Shown: in pieces, positions 10,502 through 46,443 of the stretch | How the letters are laid out: each line of letters begins with the position of its first letter | Position numbering within the stretch: the first letter of the stretch is position 1 | Assembly (NCBI RefSeq): GCF_000160455.2 | Contig: NZ_ACJX03000001.1 | Location: 1-64,000, forward strand | Source: Acetomicrobium hydrogeniformans ATCC BAA-1850 | Lineage (GTDB): Bacteria > Synergistota > Synergistia > Synergistales > Acetomicrobiaceae | DNA: 64,000 nt | Direction of reading: 5' to 3' | Position numbers and translations under genes: made by a program | Notes under the pieces: generated by a model | Database searches by the model: none | Seen by the model: the letters and a program-made list of their open reading frames with translations, nothing else | Told to the model about the DNA's origin: nothing

Positions 10502-10557
10502 CGAGGTCGGATCTTTAATCTTGAATTTTAAGGTCCCGGGGTCGGATATGACCCCGG
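10502..10557. terminator. Head-to-head repeat pair forming a bidirectional hairpin
   Basis: A family 1 copy (GGTCGGATCTTTAATC then TTGAATTTTA, 10506-10530) is followed by a perfect stem CCGGGGTC-GGATAT-GACCCCGG (10536-10557) and a T-rich tail. It separates the convergent cadC and B3/B4 genes and could terminate both. Confidence 0.65.
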
Positions 10558-40106: not shown

Positions 40107-40286
40107 GTGGTGATCTTTAAATTCCCTCCCTTGGTACTTTTTTTCTTTTTTTGTTTTTTACGCTAATGGTTGAATATTAATAAGACTTATTATTTATGTA
40201 ATAACTAAATATTCCTGGAAGGAATTATGTAATTTATATTTCAATTTGGGGTTGCATTTTTGTCCAACCTGTGTTAAATATTTTTC

Positions 40287-40304
40287 TTGTGCGCATTAGC
40301 ACAA
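40287..40304 (+). promoter_or_regulatory. Operator-like palindrome before the XRE gene
   Basis: Perfect inverted repeat TTGTGC-GCATTA-GCACAA upstream of the repressor gene, a likely binding site for its product. Confidence 0.6.
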
Positions 40305-40352
40305 TTAAAAGTCCAATCGGGAGGACAAAATAATCGGAAAGGAGGTGGGCTC

Positions 40353-40655
40353 ATGGAGTTCGAAATTCTGAGCGAGGTCATCGGTGATTTGGTGAGGCGA
40401 AGGCGAAAGGAGCTTAACCTTGCCCAGGCCGATGTATGTCGCTATGCTCATATTTCTCAAGGCCAGCTTTCCCGTATCGAAAACGGGCTTCGGATTCCTT
40501 CTCTTGCTCTTATGCTCAGGTTGTGCCGCGTGTTGAAGTATGACATAAGCATCAGCGACATATTCGATAAGTTTTCATCCAAAGATATGAAATCGAAAAA
40601 AGACAAAAAGGAGGGTGACGAAAAGAAGAAAGGCAAGGAGGGCGAAAAGTCCTAA
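40353..40655 (+). CDS. XRE-family (Cro/C1-type) repressor
   Basis: 100-residue DNA-binding protein: helix-turn-helix residues 8-62 (LVRRRRKELNLAQADVCRYA then HISQGQLSRIENGLRIPSLA), followed by a highly charged Lys/Glu/Asp tail. ATG 40353 has AAAGGAGGTG upstream. First gene of a compact phage-like block; probably represses it through the palindrome at 40287. A strong terminator follows. Confidence 0.85.
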   Translation: MEFEILSEVIGDLVRRRRKELNLAQADVCRYAHISQGQLSRIENGLRIPSLALMLRLCRVLKYDISISDIFDKFSSKDMKSKKDKKEGDEKKKGKEGEKS

Positions 40656-40687
40656 AGAATGGTCCGGGCGTGGCCCGGCGGTTTTAG

Positions 40688-40720
40688 GTAGCGTGAGGAA
40701 CATCTCACGCTACTTTTTTT
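40688..40720 (+). terminator. Intrinsic terminator
   Basis: GTAGCGTGAG-GAACAT-CTCACGCTAC followed by seven T. Confidence 0.92.
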
Positions 40721-40760
40721 GAAAATTAAACGTTAAATCACAAATATGGAGGTATTTCTA

Positions 40761-41708
40761 ATGAGCTCATCTAAAAATGGCGCTTTTGTGATGGTAGACT
40801 TCTGTGTAATCACCGATAAAAATCTAGACGTCTTTGACAAGATGACCTACGTGGCGCTTTGCAAATTTGCCGACAGAGAGGGAAAGTGCTTCCCCAGCTT
40901 AAACACTCTCGCCGCCCTGGTGGGATGCGCCCGCTCCCGCCTTCGCAAATCGCTGGACAACCTAAAAAGTTTAAATTACCTAAGGGTGGACTGCAGGGTG
41001 CTCGACGGCAAACAGCGAAGCAATCTATACACCCTCCTGCCGCGAGAAAACCGCACCCGGGTCTCCACAGGCGCAGAGGGGGGTCTCCAAAAAACCCACC
41101 CCGGGTCGCAGAACGGCCACATAACTATATCTAATATAACTAGATCTAAAGAACAAGATTCAGGGGAACTTCCGCAGTGCCATGCAGTCGCAGAAAAACC
41201 CCAGGACTCCCGGAAGCCTGCCCTCTATCCGGGAAGAGCCAGCGAACCCCCTTCACCTCTTTTTTATAAAAATCAAAATACGGCCCCCCTAGAGCGGGAG
41301 ATGAAGCATCCTCCCTATGAAGAAGTGGTCGAGTCCTTTAAGCGGCACTTTCCCGACCAAAATCCTCCCACACTAGACGAAGCAAACTGTATGTGGATGA
41401 GGGTTGCCGCCTTAGTGCATAACGAGCTTTATACCGCCCAGGGGTGGGACGACTACTTCGACGGCATCGCTGAAAGCCCCTTTTTGTTGGGGGATAACGA
41501 CGCCAACTGGAGGCCGGGCGTCTTCTGGATATTGCTTGCACAAAACATCCGAAAGGTAAAGGAAGGCTTCTTTGAAAGGGGCGGAACTTGGGAGCAGATC
41601 GTGGAACAAAGAATGAAGGTCGCAGACTTGACGGAGGAAGATCAAAAATACGTTCGTGATCTGATTTTCAATATAAAATCCAATATAAAATCGAGGGAGG
41701 CGGCCTAG
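40761..41708 (+). CDS. Phage O-like replication initiator (HTH_36)
   Basis: 315-residue protein. Residues 5-95 hold a replication-initiator winged helix (FDKMTYVALCKFADREGKCF, SLNTLAALVGCARSRLRKSL, LYTLLP), then a flexible Ser/Thr/Pro-rich linker (about 100-180), then a C-terminal helical domain. The linker DNA has an A-T rich patch with two 13-bp direct repeats, as expected for an origin embedded in an O-type gene. GGAGGT is 9 bp before ATG 40761; an upstream in-frame ATG at 40746 is not preferred. Followed after 2 bp by a probable partner gene. Confidence 0.72.
   Translation: MSSSKNGAFVMVDFCVITDKNLDVFDKMTYVALCKFADREGKCFPSLNTLAALVGCARSRLRKSLDNLKSLNYLRVDCRVLDGKQRSNLYTLLPRENRTRVSTGAEGGLQKTHPGSQNGHITISNITRSKEQDSGELPQCHAVAEKPQDSRKPALYPGRASEPPSPLFYKNQNTAPLEREMKHPPYEEVVESFKRHFPDQNPPTLDEANCMWMRVAALVHNELYTAQGWDDYFDGIAESPFLLGDNDANWRPGVFWILLAQNIRKVKEGFFERGGTWEQIVEQRMKVADLTEEDQKYVRDLIFNIKSNIKSREAA
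41121..41148 (+). repeat. Direct repeats, candidate origin
   Basis: ATAACTATATCTA (41121-41133) and ATAACTAGATCTA (41136-41148), in an A-T rich patch inside the initiator gene. Confidence 0.4.
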
Positions 41709-41710
41709 CC

Positions 41711-42271
41711 ATGGAAAGCAGGGATTTCGAGGGCTTTTTCGGCTTACTTAAGGAGGTTGCCGAGCTTTACGGGACCAGGTTGTCAAAAAAGCGGGCGGAG
41801 CTTTTCTTCGAGGCCTGCAGGGGATTATCCCTTGAAAGCTTTGCCGAGGGCGTCAGAAGGCACATTCGCTGGGGGAGCTTTTTCCCGGCTCCTGCCGAGG
41901 TGTTCAAGGCCCTCTACGGCACGCATGAAGATCAGGCGACGATGGCCTGGTGCGACGTTTTGGAGGCTATCCGAAAGACGGGTGCCGAGGGACCCGTTAA
42001 ATTCGCCGACTACCGCATCCACTACGCCATCGAGCGGATGGGCGGCTGGGCGCACGTCGCCTGGGCCGTCGGGGAAAAGAAAAGATGGCCGATGAAGGAT
42101 TTTATCTACTGGTATGTCTTTGCCCTCAAGATAAACATCGACCCCGACGACGTAAAGCCCTATTTAATGGGAAACAGAGGGCTGCCCTACAAGGCCGGGC
42201 CCGAGGACATCGCAAGGATGACGCTCGAGGTGCCGGCAGGACAGGCGCGGGGGCTTCGCAGGGTCCTTTAG
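41711..42271 (+). CDS. Phage-type replication partner, hypothetical
   Basis: 186-residue protein, helical, with conserved-looking segments ELYGTRLSKKRAELFFEACR, HIRWGSFFPAPAEVFKALYG and RMGGWAHVAWAVGEKK. Similar proteins (DUF6475-like) follow phage initiators and may be helicase loaders, but I cannot confirm the family. Starts two bases after the initiator stop (TAGCCATGG), so cotranscribed. Confidence 0.6.
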   Translation: MESRDFEGFFGLLKEVAELYGTRLSKKRAELFFEACRGLSLESFAEGVRRHIRWGSFFPAPAEVFKALYGTHEDQATMAWCDVLEAIRKTGAEGPVKFADYRIHYAIERMGGWAHVAWAVGEKKRWPMKDFIYWYVFALKINIDPDDVKPYLMGNRGLPYKAGPEDIARMTLEVPAGQARGLRRVL

Positions 42272-42497
42272 GTTTCGCCTGTGCGTCGGCGGGTCGAATA
42301 TGTTGCATGAAGCTTTTGACTGCTCCGTTGGAGCGATGTGTTTGATCTTGCTGGAGGACTTTGGTGTTTCAGGCGTTCGGCTCTTTGGCGACTTAGATGG
42401 CCTAAAAAATTTATAATATTCCTTTAGCTATGCGTATTGTGAAATTGCAGGGCCTCCTTTATAGTAGATACATCACGAAAAGAAAGGAGGCAAAGAT
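42272..42497 (+). other. Spacer within the phage-like block
   Basis: No gene supported. It ends in a strong AAAGGAGG ribosome site for the DUF1659 gene. Confidence 0.4.
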
Positions 42498-42713
42498 ATG
42501 GCAGCTTATCAACCGATAGCAAGCCGTCTGACCCTGAGGCTTCAGGTAGGAGCAGACGAATGGGGAAAGCCAAAGCTAAAGAGCAAATCCATCGCAGGCG
42601 TTGATTACTCCGCCGACGCTACCGACGTGTTGACGGTGGCGCAGGCGATCGCCGGGCTTTTGCCCTACAATCTGGTGGAAGCGCAGAAGGTCGATACCGA
42701 TAGGGTCGGTTAG
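42498..42713 (+). CDS. DUF1659 domain protein
   Basis: 71-residue protein matching the DUF1659 pattern: SRLTLRLQVGADEWGKPKLK, then AIAGLLPYNLVEAQKVDTD. Function unknown; in Firmicutes such genes sit next to DUF2922 and YvrJ genes, as here. AAAGGAGG precedes ATG 42498. Confidence 0.85.
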   Translation: MAAYQPIASRLTLRLQVGADEWGKPKLKSKSIAGVDYSADATDVLTVAQAIAGLLPYNLVEAQKVDTDRVG

Positions 42714-42749
42714 GCGATTTAACAAATTATGACGAAAAGGAGGTGATAC

Positions 42750-42965
42750 ATGTTGGAGCCGAAAATGACCAGAAGGCTTAGGATGACCTTTGAGACGGAA
42801 GACGGGCCGTGGACTTTGTCTTTGTCGGACGTAAAGGAAGGGCTGCTTCCTGAGGATGTTGAGTCGGTCATGCAGACAATAGTTGACAACAGCATATTCG
42901 GCATTCCCCCAACGGGGATCGTAAAGGCCGAGCTCATAGAGACCGACACTACTCAGCTGGTGTAA
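42750..42965 (+). CDS. DUF2922 domain protein
   Basis: 71-residue protein with the DUF2922 pattern (RLRMTFETEDGPWTLSLSDV then LPEDVESVMQTIVDNSIFGI). Function unknown. AGGAGGTGAT lies before ATG 42750. Same transcription unit as DUF1659, 36 bp apart. Confidence 0.85.
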   Translation: MLEPKMTRRLRMTFETEDGPWTLSLSDVKEGLLPEDVESVMQTIVDNSIFGIPPTGIVKAELIETDTTQLV

Positions 42966-43232
42966 ATATAGATGTTTAAAGGCTGCCCTCAAAGGTGGCC
43001 TTTTGACGGAAAAATAAGGGGTTTTTTAGGGCTCCCTTTTAAGGTAAAAGTTCAAGCCGGGGGGGTTTACCGGCAAAGTGAAGTGTGTTTGCAGTTTACG
43101 AGCGGGTCTTTGCGGGCCTTACATAATGTGAGGCAGACATGGGAAAAGCCGGGGCTTCCTGGGAGGAGGCGCCCGCAAGGGCTTTAAGCTCCTGTAATTT
43201 AAGCGAAGGGAGGGAAAATTTTGGAGGAATTT

Positions 43233-43373
43233 ATGACGTCCACTCTTCAGACGACCTTTTCCATCGCGGTGGCGGCTTATCTGCTGATCCGCATGGAAAA
43301 GCGTCTCGACGAGCTGGCAATAGCGATAAACAACCTCGAAAAGGGCGTGGCAAAATACTTCGGCAAGGTGTAA
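43233..43373 (+). CDS. YvrJ family small membrane protein
   Basis: 46 codons from ATG 43233 (GGAGG 5 bp upstream) to TAA 43373: STLQTTFSIAVAAYLLIRME then KRLDELAIAINNLEKGV. One N-terminal transmembrane helix and a short amphipathic cytosolic helix, as in YvrJ proteins. In a unit ending with a lysin it could act as a holin-like or anchor protein; that is speculation from size and order. Confidence 0.8.
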   Translation: MTSTLQTTFSIAVAAYLLIRMEKRLDELAIAINNLEKGVAKYFGKV

Positions 43374-43499
43374 TTGCAGGTCTAATTTGAAATTTTGCAG
43401 ACTTTCGAGGCGTTTTTGCAAGTTTTTTGACCGTAATTGAAAAATGCAAGCGCCGATGACGGCGCATAAATATAGATTAATATAACGAAAGGAGATCTC

Positions 43500-44036
43500 A
43501 TGAGAGGAAGCGTTGCAGATTATATTTTGAAGGTCGAAGGAGGGTTCGTAGACAACCCGAAAGACCCCGGCGGCAGGACAAAGTTTGGCATCACTGCCGC
43601 CACCCTCGCCTCGGCACGAGCGAGGCTAAAAGACGCCGGGCTTCCCGAAGACGTAATAAACCTTACAAAAGAGCAGGCGCTGGCGATATACGAAAAATTT
43701 TACTGGAAGCCCGCAGGGTGCGACCACATCCCCCGCCCCGTCGATTTAGCCCTATTCGACGGGTGCGTCAACTGCGGAGTAAGGCAGGGCGTGAAGTTCC
43801 TGCAGGAGGCGCTTAATATGCTTGGAGAAAACCTGGCCGTAGACGGCATCTTTGGACAAAAGACCATGCAGGCTGCCTGGGAGCATGCGCTACCCAAGAC
43901 CAAAATTTTATCCACCCTGCTTTGGCGGCGCACGAAATACTACAACGACATCGTCGCCCGAAACCCCGACAGGCGGGTCTTCCTGCACGGCTGGCTCAAC
44001 CGCCTAGCCCAACTTTGGAGCTGCGCTGTGGGATGA
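43500..44036 (+). CDS. GH108 N-acetylmuramidase (phage-type endolysin)
   Basis: 178-residue peptidoglycan hydrolase. Residues 1-95: GH108 catalytic domain with catalytic Glu13 in KVEGGFVDNP and DPGGRTKFGIT. Residues 100-175: a PG_binding_3 domain (GVRQGVKFLQEALNML, VDGIFGQKTM). No signal peptide, so export would need a holin or similar. AAAGGAGATCTC precedes ATG 43500. Last gene of the phage-like block; a strong hairpin follows. Confidence 0.9.
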   Translation: MRGSVADYILKVEGGFVDNPKDPGGRTKFGITAATLASARARLKDAGLPEDVINLTKEQALAIYEKFYWKPAGCDHIPRPVDLALFDGCVNCGVRQGVKFLQEALNMLGENLAVDGIFGQKTMQAAWEHALPKTKILSTLLWRRTKYYNDIVARNPDRRVFLHGWLNRLAQLWSCAVG

Positions 44037-44079
44037 TAAATGTTATGAAGAAATTTATTTAGCCGCACTTGTTGGCTTT

Positions 44080-44123
44080 GGGGCCTGCCGTTTTATATGA
44101 ACAATATATAAGCGGTAGGCCCC
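44080..44123 (+). repeat. Palindromic repeat family 2, most complete hairpin copy
   Basis: GGGGCCTGCCG ... CGGTAGGCCCC with a nearly continuous stem through the centre. It lies 44 bp after the lysin gene and may terminate its transcription. A partial copy (AAGCGGTAGACC) is at 44179-44190. Confidence 0.75.
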
Positions 44124-44211
44124 GCTTTAAGTTATAATAAAGTTACCTAAAAGTAAAGGGTATCATGAGGTCGCCAAGCAAGCGGTAGACCTTGGATTGA
44201 GGTGATCGAGA

Positions 44212-44430
44212 TTGGTTAAAGTAGCGGATCGGATCGTCGTCGATCCTGAAATATGTTTTGGAAAACCGGTTATCGAGGACACTAGAATCCCGGTTCATCT
44301 GGTTTTGGAACTTTTGGGCGATGGAGTTACACCAGATGAAATTATAAAAAATTATTATCCCTGTTTGACCAAGGAGGATATCCTTGCTTGTATCCGTTTT
44401 GCCAACTCCTTCATAATGATAGACCCTTGA
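44212..44430 (+). CDS. DUF433 antitoxin-like protein, orphan
   Basis: 72-residue DUF433 protein (RIVVDPEICFGKPVIEDTRI then VHLVLELLGDGVTPDEIIKN), a small winged-helix antitoxin usually paired with a DUF5615 PIN-like toxin. No toxin follows. A DUF5615 fragment lies 4.5 kb away at 48963. TTG 44212 chosen: GAGGTG is 7 bp upstream. Confidence 0.83.
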   Translation: MVKVADRIVVDPEICFGKPVIEDTRIPVHLVLELLGDGVTPDEIIKNYYPCLTKEDILACIRFANSFIMIDP

Positions 44431-44735: not shown

Positions 44736-44795
44736 GGGGTCGGATCTTTAATCTTGAAATATCTTTAATCTTGAAATATCTTTAATCTTGAAATA
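44736..44795 (+). repeat. REP-like repeat with tandem tail
   Basis: GGGGTCGGATCTTTAATC then TTGAAAT, followed by two further tandem copies of ATCTTTAATCTTGAAAT (three in all). Confidence 0.85.
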
Positions 44796-45221: not shown

Positions 45222-45276
45222 TAATTCAAGATTAAAGATCCGACCCTCGAGGTTTTCGCGACCCTCGAGGTTTTCG
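45222..45276 (-). repeat. REP-like repeat and 18-bp tandem duplication
   Basis: AATTCAAGATTAAAGATCCG then ACCC; its end runs into two perfect copies of CGACCCTCGAGGTTTTCG (45241-45258, 45259-45276). Confidence 0.8.
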
Positions 45277-45284
45277 CTGCTAGT

Positions 45285-45752
45285 TTAGATGGCCTCGCGA
45301 AAGTAATCCTCGAAAGCAGCCTTAATTATGTCTTTTACTTTATCCACTGCATTGGACTCGGACAGCGCAAGCGTAAGCAATGTATTAATTAAACTATTAA
45401 GGCTTACGTTCTCACGCTCGGCCCTTTCGGCCAGCATACGGTGCAGAAATTTTGGAATTCGAAGGACAAAACGGCCGCTGTACTCTTCTTCCGCTTCTTC
45501 TGCAGTCTCAGGTATAGGCAGCCCCTCATTTAGCCAGCGCGCAAAGGATTCCCGTTTTATCTCGTTCAGCAGCGCCAAGGCCTCCTCAAAAGTTTCGCCA
45601 TACGCATTCATCGATGCCCGACCCAAGGCAGGAATGGTTATGATAAATCCTCCCCCTTCCTCTTGAGAAACTTGCGTGACTTCAAGGGGGTAATTTAACT
45701 TCATGTAATATTCTAAATCCTTTTTCAAACCTATCACCTCAATATGTCTCAT
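45285..45752 (-). CDS. hicB: HicB-family antitoxin with C-terminal DNA-binding domain
   Basis: 155-residue antitoxin: an N-terminal partial RNase H domain (EGGGFIITIPALGRASMNAY then ETFEEALALLNEIK) and a C-terminal ribbon-helix-helix (FVLRIPKFLHRMLAERAERE, VSLNSLINTLLTLAL). ATG 45752 is supported because it overlaps the original hicA stop in an ATGA, although a TTG at 45728 with GAGGTG is also possible. It likely binds the 24-bp palindrome upstream of hicA. Its partner is frameshifted. Confidence 0.85.
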   Translation of the reverse strand: MRHIEVIGLKKDLEYYMKLNYPLEVTQVSQEEGGGFIITIPALGRASMNAYGETFEEALALLNEIKRESFARWLNEGLPIPETAEEAEEEYSGRFVLRIPKFLHRMLAERAERENVSLNSLINTLLTLALSESNAVDKVKDIIKAAFEDYFREAI

Positions 45753-46062
45753 TTGTCCTTCTTCATCCCTTCTATTTCCTGGATGTATTTCAACGCCTTA
45801 CAGATATTTCTTAAATACCAATGTTTAACTTTATTTTATGCCGTACGATGACCAAGTCTCCACTGGGATGAAAATCCCTTGAAAAGTAGCCCGGGAACTG
45901 CTTAAAGGCTTCTTTAATCAAAGGATGTTGAAAGACCGCATGACTTCCTTTATCGTGAACCTTTTTGAATCCGGCCTTTAAAAGAAAATTTTCAACGACA
46001 TCATAACGTTCTTCTGATGTTGAACATAGCCACTTGTTCAAAAGTTTGTCAGCTTCATCCAC
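45749..46062 (-). pseudogene. hicA: hicA-type toxin gene with a frameshift
   Basis: GTG 46062 (GAGGT upstream) opens a frame with YDVVENFLLKAGFKKVHDKG then SHAVFQHPLIKEAF, the HicA core with its catalytic His, and GDLVIVRHK. A stop follows at 45813-45811. The expected ending (KVKHWYLRNICKALKYIQEI) is present in another frame and runs to a TGA overlapping the hicB ATG. Removing two bases near 45835 would restore one frame. The toxin is probably truncated. Confidence 0.75.
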
Positions 46063-46417: not shown

Positions 46418-46443
46418 AAATTCAAGATTAAAGATCCGACCCT
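46418..46443 (-). repeat. REP-like repeat, family 1
   Basis: AAATTCAAGATTAAAGATCC then GACCCT. It supplies GSDL and TAA to the gene at 46428. Confidence 0.85.

Follow-up and report, generated by a model that had tools for sequence, protein, structure and literature searches.

The first 64,000 nucleotides of contig NZ_ACJX03000001.1 of Acetomicrobium hydrogeniformans ATCC BAA-1850 (the window, meaning this whole stretch) contain a compact block of seven genes. It joins a phage-type repressor and replication pair to three tiny proteins, DUF1659, DUF2922 and YvrJ (the trio), and a GH108 murein hydrolase. We read the block, with about even confidence, as a regulated YvrJ-hydrolase operon that opens the cell in a holin/endolysin-like manner and has captured a phage module for regulation and replication. 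This reading builds on the gene content, order and conservation of the block, its intact reading frames, the phage kinship of its front half and the faster or swapped evolution of that half.

Organization of the block

Pfam and PHROG matches confirm all seven genes at 40353-44036, on the + strand and in the order given by a first-pass annotation of this DNA (XRE, O-like initiator, partner, DUF1659, DUF2922, YvrJ, GH108). The features are as follows.

40287-40304 (reported within 40280-40310), no strand: candidate operator 5' of XRE, the imperfect palindrome TTGTGC-N6-GCACAA (inverted repeat, 12-nt arms, 83% complementary); function putative
40353-40655, +: XRE/Cro-CI type regulator (Pfam HTH_3, 2.5e-13; PHROG transcriptional repressors)
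40686-40715, +: intrinsic terminator between XRE and the remaining genes (13-bp stem and T run; fold z -6.15 against shuffles)
40761-41708, +: phage O-like replication initiator, REP (HTH_36, 1.5e-10; PHROG "replication initiation O-like", 1.9e-13; ratio of nonsynonymous to synonymous divergence, Ka/Ks, 0.32 within species)
41118-41169, +: candidate origin, a 52-bp AT-rich element in mid-gene of the initiator (similarity between genomes G000 and G004)
41711-42271, +: P-like partner of the initiator, PAR (phrog_10105, 6e-33; weak DUF6475)
42498-42713, +: DUF1659 protein, 71 aa, predicted beta-beta-alpha-beta (Pfam 4e-18; AlphaFold2 predicted local distance difference test, pLDDT, 87.5)
42750-42965, +: DUF2922 protein, 71 aa, predicted beta-beta-alpha-beta (Pfam 9e-17; AlphaFold2 pLDDT 85.5)
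43221-43373, +: YvrJ protein, 50 aa, a short hydrophobic helix and a charged helix, proposed to be holin-like (Pfam 3e-12)
43500-44036, +: GH108 and PG_binding_3 muramidase without a signal peptide (Pfam 3e-27; PHROG endolysin 1e-44; N-terminus not hydrophobic)
about 44073-44131, +: strong end hairpin of the block (-33.7 kcal/mol; fold z -5.8 against shuffles)

The terminator after XRE and the end hairpin, both predicted earlier, fold far better than shuffled sequences (z -6.2 and -5.8). An XRE operator had also been predicted; the palindrome is there, and its operator role is putative. Gene calling in the GC-rich loci produced spurious antisense and over-long open reading frames (ORFs), and gene use was restricted to calls supported by hidden Markov models (HMMs).

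The trio and its hydrolases

DUF1659, DUF2922 and YvrJ are old, widespread families whose order is conserved across phyla, which bears out their earlier description as a recurrent set of unknown function. DUF2922 is present in 45 of 61 relatives from the order, almost always as a single copy, and, in a sample of 299 genomes from the phylum to which Sporomusa belongs, YvrJ is present in 123. Synergistota loci outside Acetomicrobium typically read DUF1659-DUF2922-YvrJ-Peptidase_M15-sigma factor. In Bacillota, DUF1659-DUF2922-YvrJ is often accompanied by Amidase_2, Amidase_3 or M15 and by a regulator gene, either a sigma factor upstream or a ComK-like one downstream. Five murein hydrolase families fill the slot after the trio: M15, Amidase_2, Amidase_3, glucosaminidase (in one Synergistota family) and GH108 (in Acetomicrobium and one uncultured Synergistaceae genome, L064). 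Judged by N-terminal hydropathy, trio-linked hydrolases with correctly called starts have no signal-peptide-like segment. A hydrolase start at most 20 bp from the YvrJ stop, or overlapping it, is possible in 37 of 57 loci, a partly redundant set in which some genomes are counted twice; the YvrJ-GH108 gap in the window is 126 bp.

No match to the trio was found in 50,697 phage records (tblastn, several queries), and none of the stretches scanned in IMG/VR was confirmed to hold it. Because the trio is missing from these collections while being conserved across genomes, the comparisons place it among chromosomal operons and not among sets of phage genes. The earlier label "phage-like block" fits the front half but not the trio. 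PHROGs does include families with weak kinship, so distant phage members of the trio may exist. The first-pass annotation had stressed that the trio is coupled here to replication and lysis genes. Both are present, but lysin coupling is common for the trio, and it is the replication coupling alone that sets this locus apart.

Two variations on the trio were seen. Some Synergistota genomes hold DUF1659-DUF2922 pairs without YvrJ, which form a divergent subgroup (L041:9607-10094, L056:9933-10417). At some Bacillota loci, a small zinc-ribbon-like protein of the CxxC...CxxC type lies between DUF2922 and YvrJ (L152:1184-1405, L159:1654-1890, L176:2643-2909) and is possibly a fourth component of the operon.

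The predicted folds of DUF1659 and DUF2922 have a similar beta-beta-alpha-beta layout (AlphaFold2), and the two profiles show weak kinship (E 1e-4, probability 57%). Both proteins are mostly acidic (median isoelectric points 5.3 and 4.9), which disfavours DNA binding. A PDB sequence search matched nothing. A fold search with the two models returned no significant match, and its best PDB leads (an archaeal arginine decarboxylase; phi29 p6 and p56), with E of 0.05 or worse, were not used. YvrJ carries the motif FSVAVAAYLLVRMExRLEEL, conserved in 18 loci, and its hydropathy points to membrane insertion. In a full-text literature search, DUF1659 and DUF2922 surfaced only in work predicting phenotypes from domain frequencies, and papers naming YvrJ touch on it only briefly.

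Origin and distribution of the front half

By its protein kinships, the front half (XRE-O-P) is phage-derived, and we read it as a captured module for regulation and replication. Its O-like initiator adjoins a P-like loader, as in lambda-type O/P modules, and the phage relatives of the partner include proteins themselves annotated as replication protein P, as well as ones whose genes overlap others named as that protein, a primosomal protein or a replication initiator. A P-like partner occurs in 20 of the 188 genomes of the phylum. Outside trio loci, the context of the O-P pair was annotated in depth for two genomes: the partner region encodes RecE, RecT, SSB and a methyltransferase in G184 and a terminase in G075, and by this content both are prophage-type regions.

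An XRE-O-P module upstream of the trio is confined to Acetomicrobium (G000, G066, G003, G004) and to two genomes from another family, f7, where further genes, part of them on the opposite strand, separate it from the trio. Conservation of gene order in relatives, which the first-pass annotation had raised as a check, holds across phyla for the trio, with its hydrolase, but for the XRE-O-P linkage in these two families alone. In the PAR tree, which has long branches and a midpoint root, the trio-linked Acetomicrobium and f7 groups join at 95/95, which hints that the linkage arose once. The M15-sigma factor pair was lost from, or never present at, the trio in both groups, and a search for a dedicated sigma factor elsewhere in Acetomicrobium gave only weak generic sigma matches.

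Divergence and selection

The two halves of the block differ in their divergence. Identity between G000 and G004 is 40-58% in the front half (XRE 58, REP 40, PAR 52), 87-94% in the trio and hydrolase (DUF1659 90, DUF2922 89, YvrJ 92, GH108 92) and 93-96% in the flanking genes (C10 93, C9 96). Synonymous divergence (Ks) between these genomes is saturated in XRE, REP and PAR, high in DUF1659 (1.2-2.6) and 0.2-0.5 in DUF2922, YvrJ, GH108 and C10. Inside the species group (G066, G003), front-half Ks is 0.06-0.12, below the 0.17-0.21 of C10, DUF2922 and GH108. Allelic exchange of the front half accounts best for this pattern.

All frames are intact in the four genomes, and the block genes are under purifying selection, with Ka/Ks values of 0-0.19 (trio and lysin), 0.26-0.39 (REP, PAR) and 0.13-0.48 (XRE). 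G000, G066 and G004 carry the block at one shared position, beside the regulator gene C10, with flanks 91-93% identical. In G003, C10 lies ~45 kb away and the block is at a contig end, so that this flank is uninformative. An empty site could not be read in the same-genus metagenome-assembled genomes G001 and G002, in neither of which C10 was found.

The element at 41118-41169 is alike in G000 and G004 although the initiator proteins are ~40% identical, a pattern that would fit an origin lying within an O gene. The same stretch also encodes a peptide common to both genomes, and a codon test was not significant (identical codons 10/13 versus 54/115, p 0.076); for these two reasons it is only a candidate origin. 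An iteron search in the initiator gene returned short, weak repeats only.

Proposed function

In the mechanism we propose, a regulator would activate the operon, possibly in a small number of cells. YvrJ, very small and with one membrane helix, would then act like a holin and give the signal-less hydrolase access to the peptidoglycan, so that the cell wall would be breached, either locally or with lethal effect. The proposed role of DUF1659 and DUF2922 is that of cargo or of modulating YvrJ. In Acetomicrobium and f7, the locus lacks the sigma factor, and a phage-derived XRE repressor and O/P pair stands in front. Given the placement of the front half with its repressor, de-repression could trigger local DNA replication together with cell opening, and replication-coupled DNA release is possible. 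Holin function, the cargo role, origin activity and co-regulation are what we infer here. Two traits of a holin-endolysin release cassette are found at trio loci: a hydrolase without a signal peptide (N-terminal hydropathy, Pfam domains) and a small, putatively membrane-placed protein whose gene adjoins or overlaps the hydrolase gene.

Several observations weigh against this account. The assignment of YvrJ as a holin is a proposal. Alignment of YvrJ with BhlA holins (hhalign) gave a probability of 7%, leaving homology unsupported, scans of Pfam, NCBIfam and PHROG returned no holin family for it, and its helix is only moderately hydrophobic. Co-regulation of the operon with the XRE-O-P half is conjectural; the block is divided into units by the terminator and by a 226-bp gap that contains a promoter-like site. 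Several trio loci have no recognisable hydrolase or known regulator within reach, both being frequent rather than universal. ComK-like genes at the trio, and recD2- and comFC-like genes beside it in Sporomusa (named by eye), point instead to competence.

A broader version of the cell-opening operon, which we consider quite unlikely, would be an order-wide opening or release system with swappable regulators (sigma, ComK-like, XRE) and hydrolases, of which the Acetomicrobium form would be a capsid-free DNA release device, local amplification and opening being fired together. More generally, a single operon that combines the trio with a signal-less, exchangeable hydrolase and with its own regulator, sigma or ComK-like, offers a concrete, testable function: an opened wall would serve either for release or for the uptake of DNA. 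The swapping of hydrolases across families provides a natural experiment, and the Acetomicrobium form raises the question of why a phage replication initiator is attached.

Alternative explanations

The block could instead be a decaying prophage that has lost its middle and kept only the ends for immunity, replication and lysis, with no joint function among the survivors. We regard this as rather unlikely. XRE, O, P and GH108 do have phage relatives, the order of repressor, replication and lysis is phage-like, and elsewhere in the phylum O-P pairs lie in prophage-type regions. Decay fits poorly, however, with a trio that is an old chromosomal operon absent from the phage records searched, with intact frames and Ka/Ks <0.5 in four genomes, and with the recurrence of the XRE-O-P/trio linkage in a second family; nor is there a nearby integrase, a clear terminase or convincing attachment (att) traces.

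The main rival, though an improbable one, is a competence operon, in which the trio and hydrolase, controlled by a ComK-like or sigma regulator that was replaced in Acetomicrobium, would make a way through the wall for incoming DNA. In Bacillota, ComK-like proteins are encoded next to the trio, immediately on its downstream side (L139, L141-L143, L145, L149-L152, L154, L155, L157, L161, L162; Pfam ComK 2.3e-5 in L150). An iterated ComK HMM gave 15 matches, nearly all at the trio, and several genome matches adjoin YvrJ. The Sporomusa loci (L084-L086) have a sigma factor and the trio followed by a RecD2-like helicase and a ComFC-like protein. SigO-RsoA drives yvrJ in B. subtilis (PMC8103513), and rsoA and sigO are raised in competent B. 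subtilis cells (PMC7317962). On the other side, the ComK matches are weak, several passing or approaching the Pfam cut-off only weakly, and true ComK genes of Bacilli do not stand beside YvrJ. Signal-less hydrolases are unlike ordinary exported wall enzymes, no com genes were recognised at the Synergistota loci examined, and the text searched did not show yvrJ itself among the genes of competent cells.

A satellite or other mobile replicon, which would excise, replicate through O/P and be released by its own lysin, matches the presence of replication and lysis genes together and has a partial parallel in a Ligilactobacillus salivarius plasmid (below), but is very unlikely given the shared site beside C10 in G000, G066 and G004, the lack of a nearby integrase or convincing att repeats and the absence of a clear terminase from the genome. 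The satellite category of the first-pass annotation has no support; its other two, "domesticated element" and "non-capsid export system", are still the most fitting.

Mobility and neighbouring features

The nearest integrase-family match in the genome is >600 kb from the block, and a terminase profile gave only weak, partial matches, leaving no clear helper terminase. Neither capsid genes, whose absence had been noted earlier, nor packaging genes occur among the block genes in Pfam and PHROG scans. A search for integration boundaries, also suggested earlier, found no convincing att repeats around the block. The only flanking repeat belongs to a dispersed genus-wide family, and for this reason the chance-like repeats around the block were rejected as att sites. 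A 21-nt repeat, GGTCGGATCTTTAATCTTGAA, has 18 copies in the window with 3 mismatches allowed, against 0 in shuffles (sites include 2709-2729, 10505-10525, 44738-44758, 45225-45245 and 46421-46441). With at most 2 mismatches, it has 19 copies in the 2.1-Mb genome, most of them within the window, and it is also clustered in other Acetomicrobium genomes.

A single separate case combines the trio with replication and lysin genes: the 13.5-kb L. salivarius plasmid (L176, NZ_CP027646.1, 1-6396) encodes RepB, a weak DUF1659-like ORF, DUF2922, a CxxC-type small ORF, an unannotated YvrJ-like ORF, an integrase, SSB, a rolling-circle initiator and a GH25+LysM lysin.

The G+C content of the block is 0.52-0.53. 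It had been described as higher than in the flanks, which is true of the right flank (0.40-0.43) but not of the left, which is nearly equal (0.49-0.52). PADLOC returned only helix-turn-helix domains on the block. Directly past the end hairpin lies a DUF433 protein (44212-44430), kept in G003 and G066, with a relaxed Ka/Ks of 0.62 against G003. Also beside the block, on the - strand, a HicB-family protein and a weak HicA-like ORF (45285-46062) form a likely toxin-antitoxin pair.

Comparison with known systems

Clostridial bacteriocins are known with an arrangement of sigma factor, one-helix holin and amidase (PMC9527704). The trio loci resemble this UviA-UviB-amidase release module (and TcdR/TcdE-type modules) in having a sigma-type regulator, a very small one-helix membrane protein, a signal-less murein hydrolase and small proteins without signal peptides. 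They differ in that YvrJ is not detectably homologous to BhlA/UviB, making the parallel an architectural one, and in that DUF1659/DUF2922 take the place of the bacteriocin; in the Acetomicrobium block, moreover, XRE replaces the sigma factor and O/P is added. In type 10 secretion systems (T10SS) of Yersinia entomophaga and Salmonella (ChiA), a holin and a muralytic enzyme are proposed to let proteins out of the cytoplasm, in some cases from a small number of cells (PMC10847048, PMC10109510). The pairing of a holin-like protein with a phage-type hydrolase proposed here is similar, but no known T10SS holin, spanin or cargo was identified, and no homology search against T10SS parts was made.

The front half recalls the lambda-type O/P module of temperate phages, with a helix-turn-helix initiator and then a P-like protein behind a repressor, and a possible AT-rich intragenic origin. 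Unlike that module, it is not divergent from a cro-like gene, is followed by no recombinase, terminase or structural genes, and is joined to a chromosomal operon. In B. subtilis, yvrJ is likewise a YvrJ gene under a special sigma factor, SigO-RsoA (PMC8103513). The Acetomicrobium block is an XRE-O-P-driven variant of a module type that is uncharacterised though familiar in its architecture.

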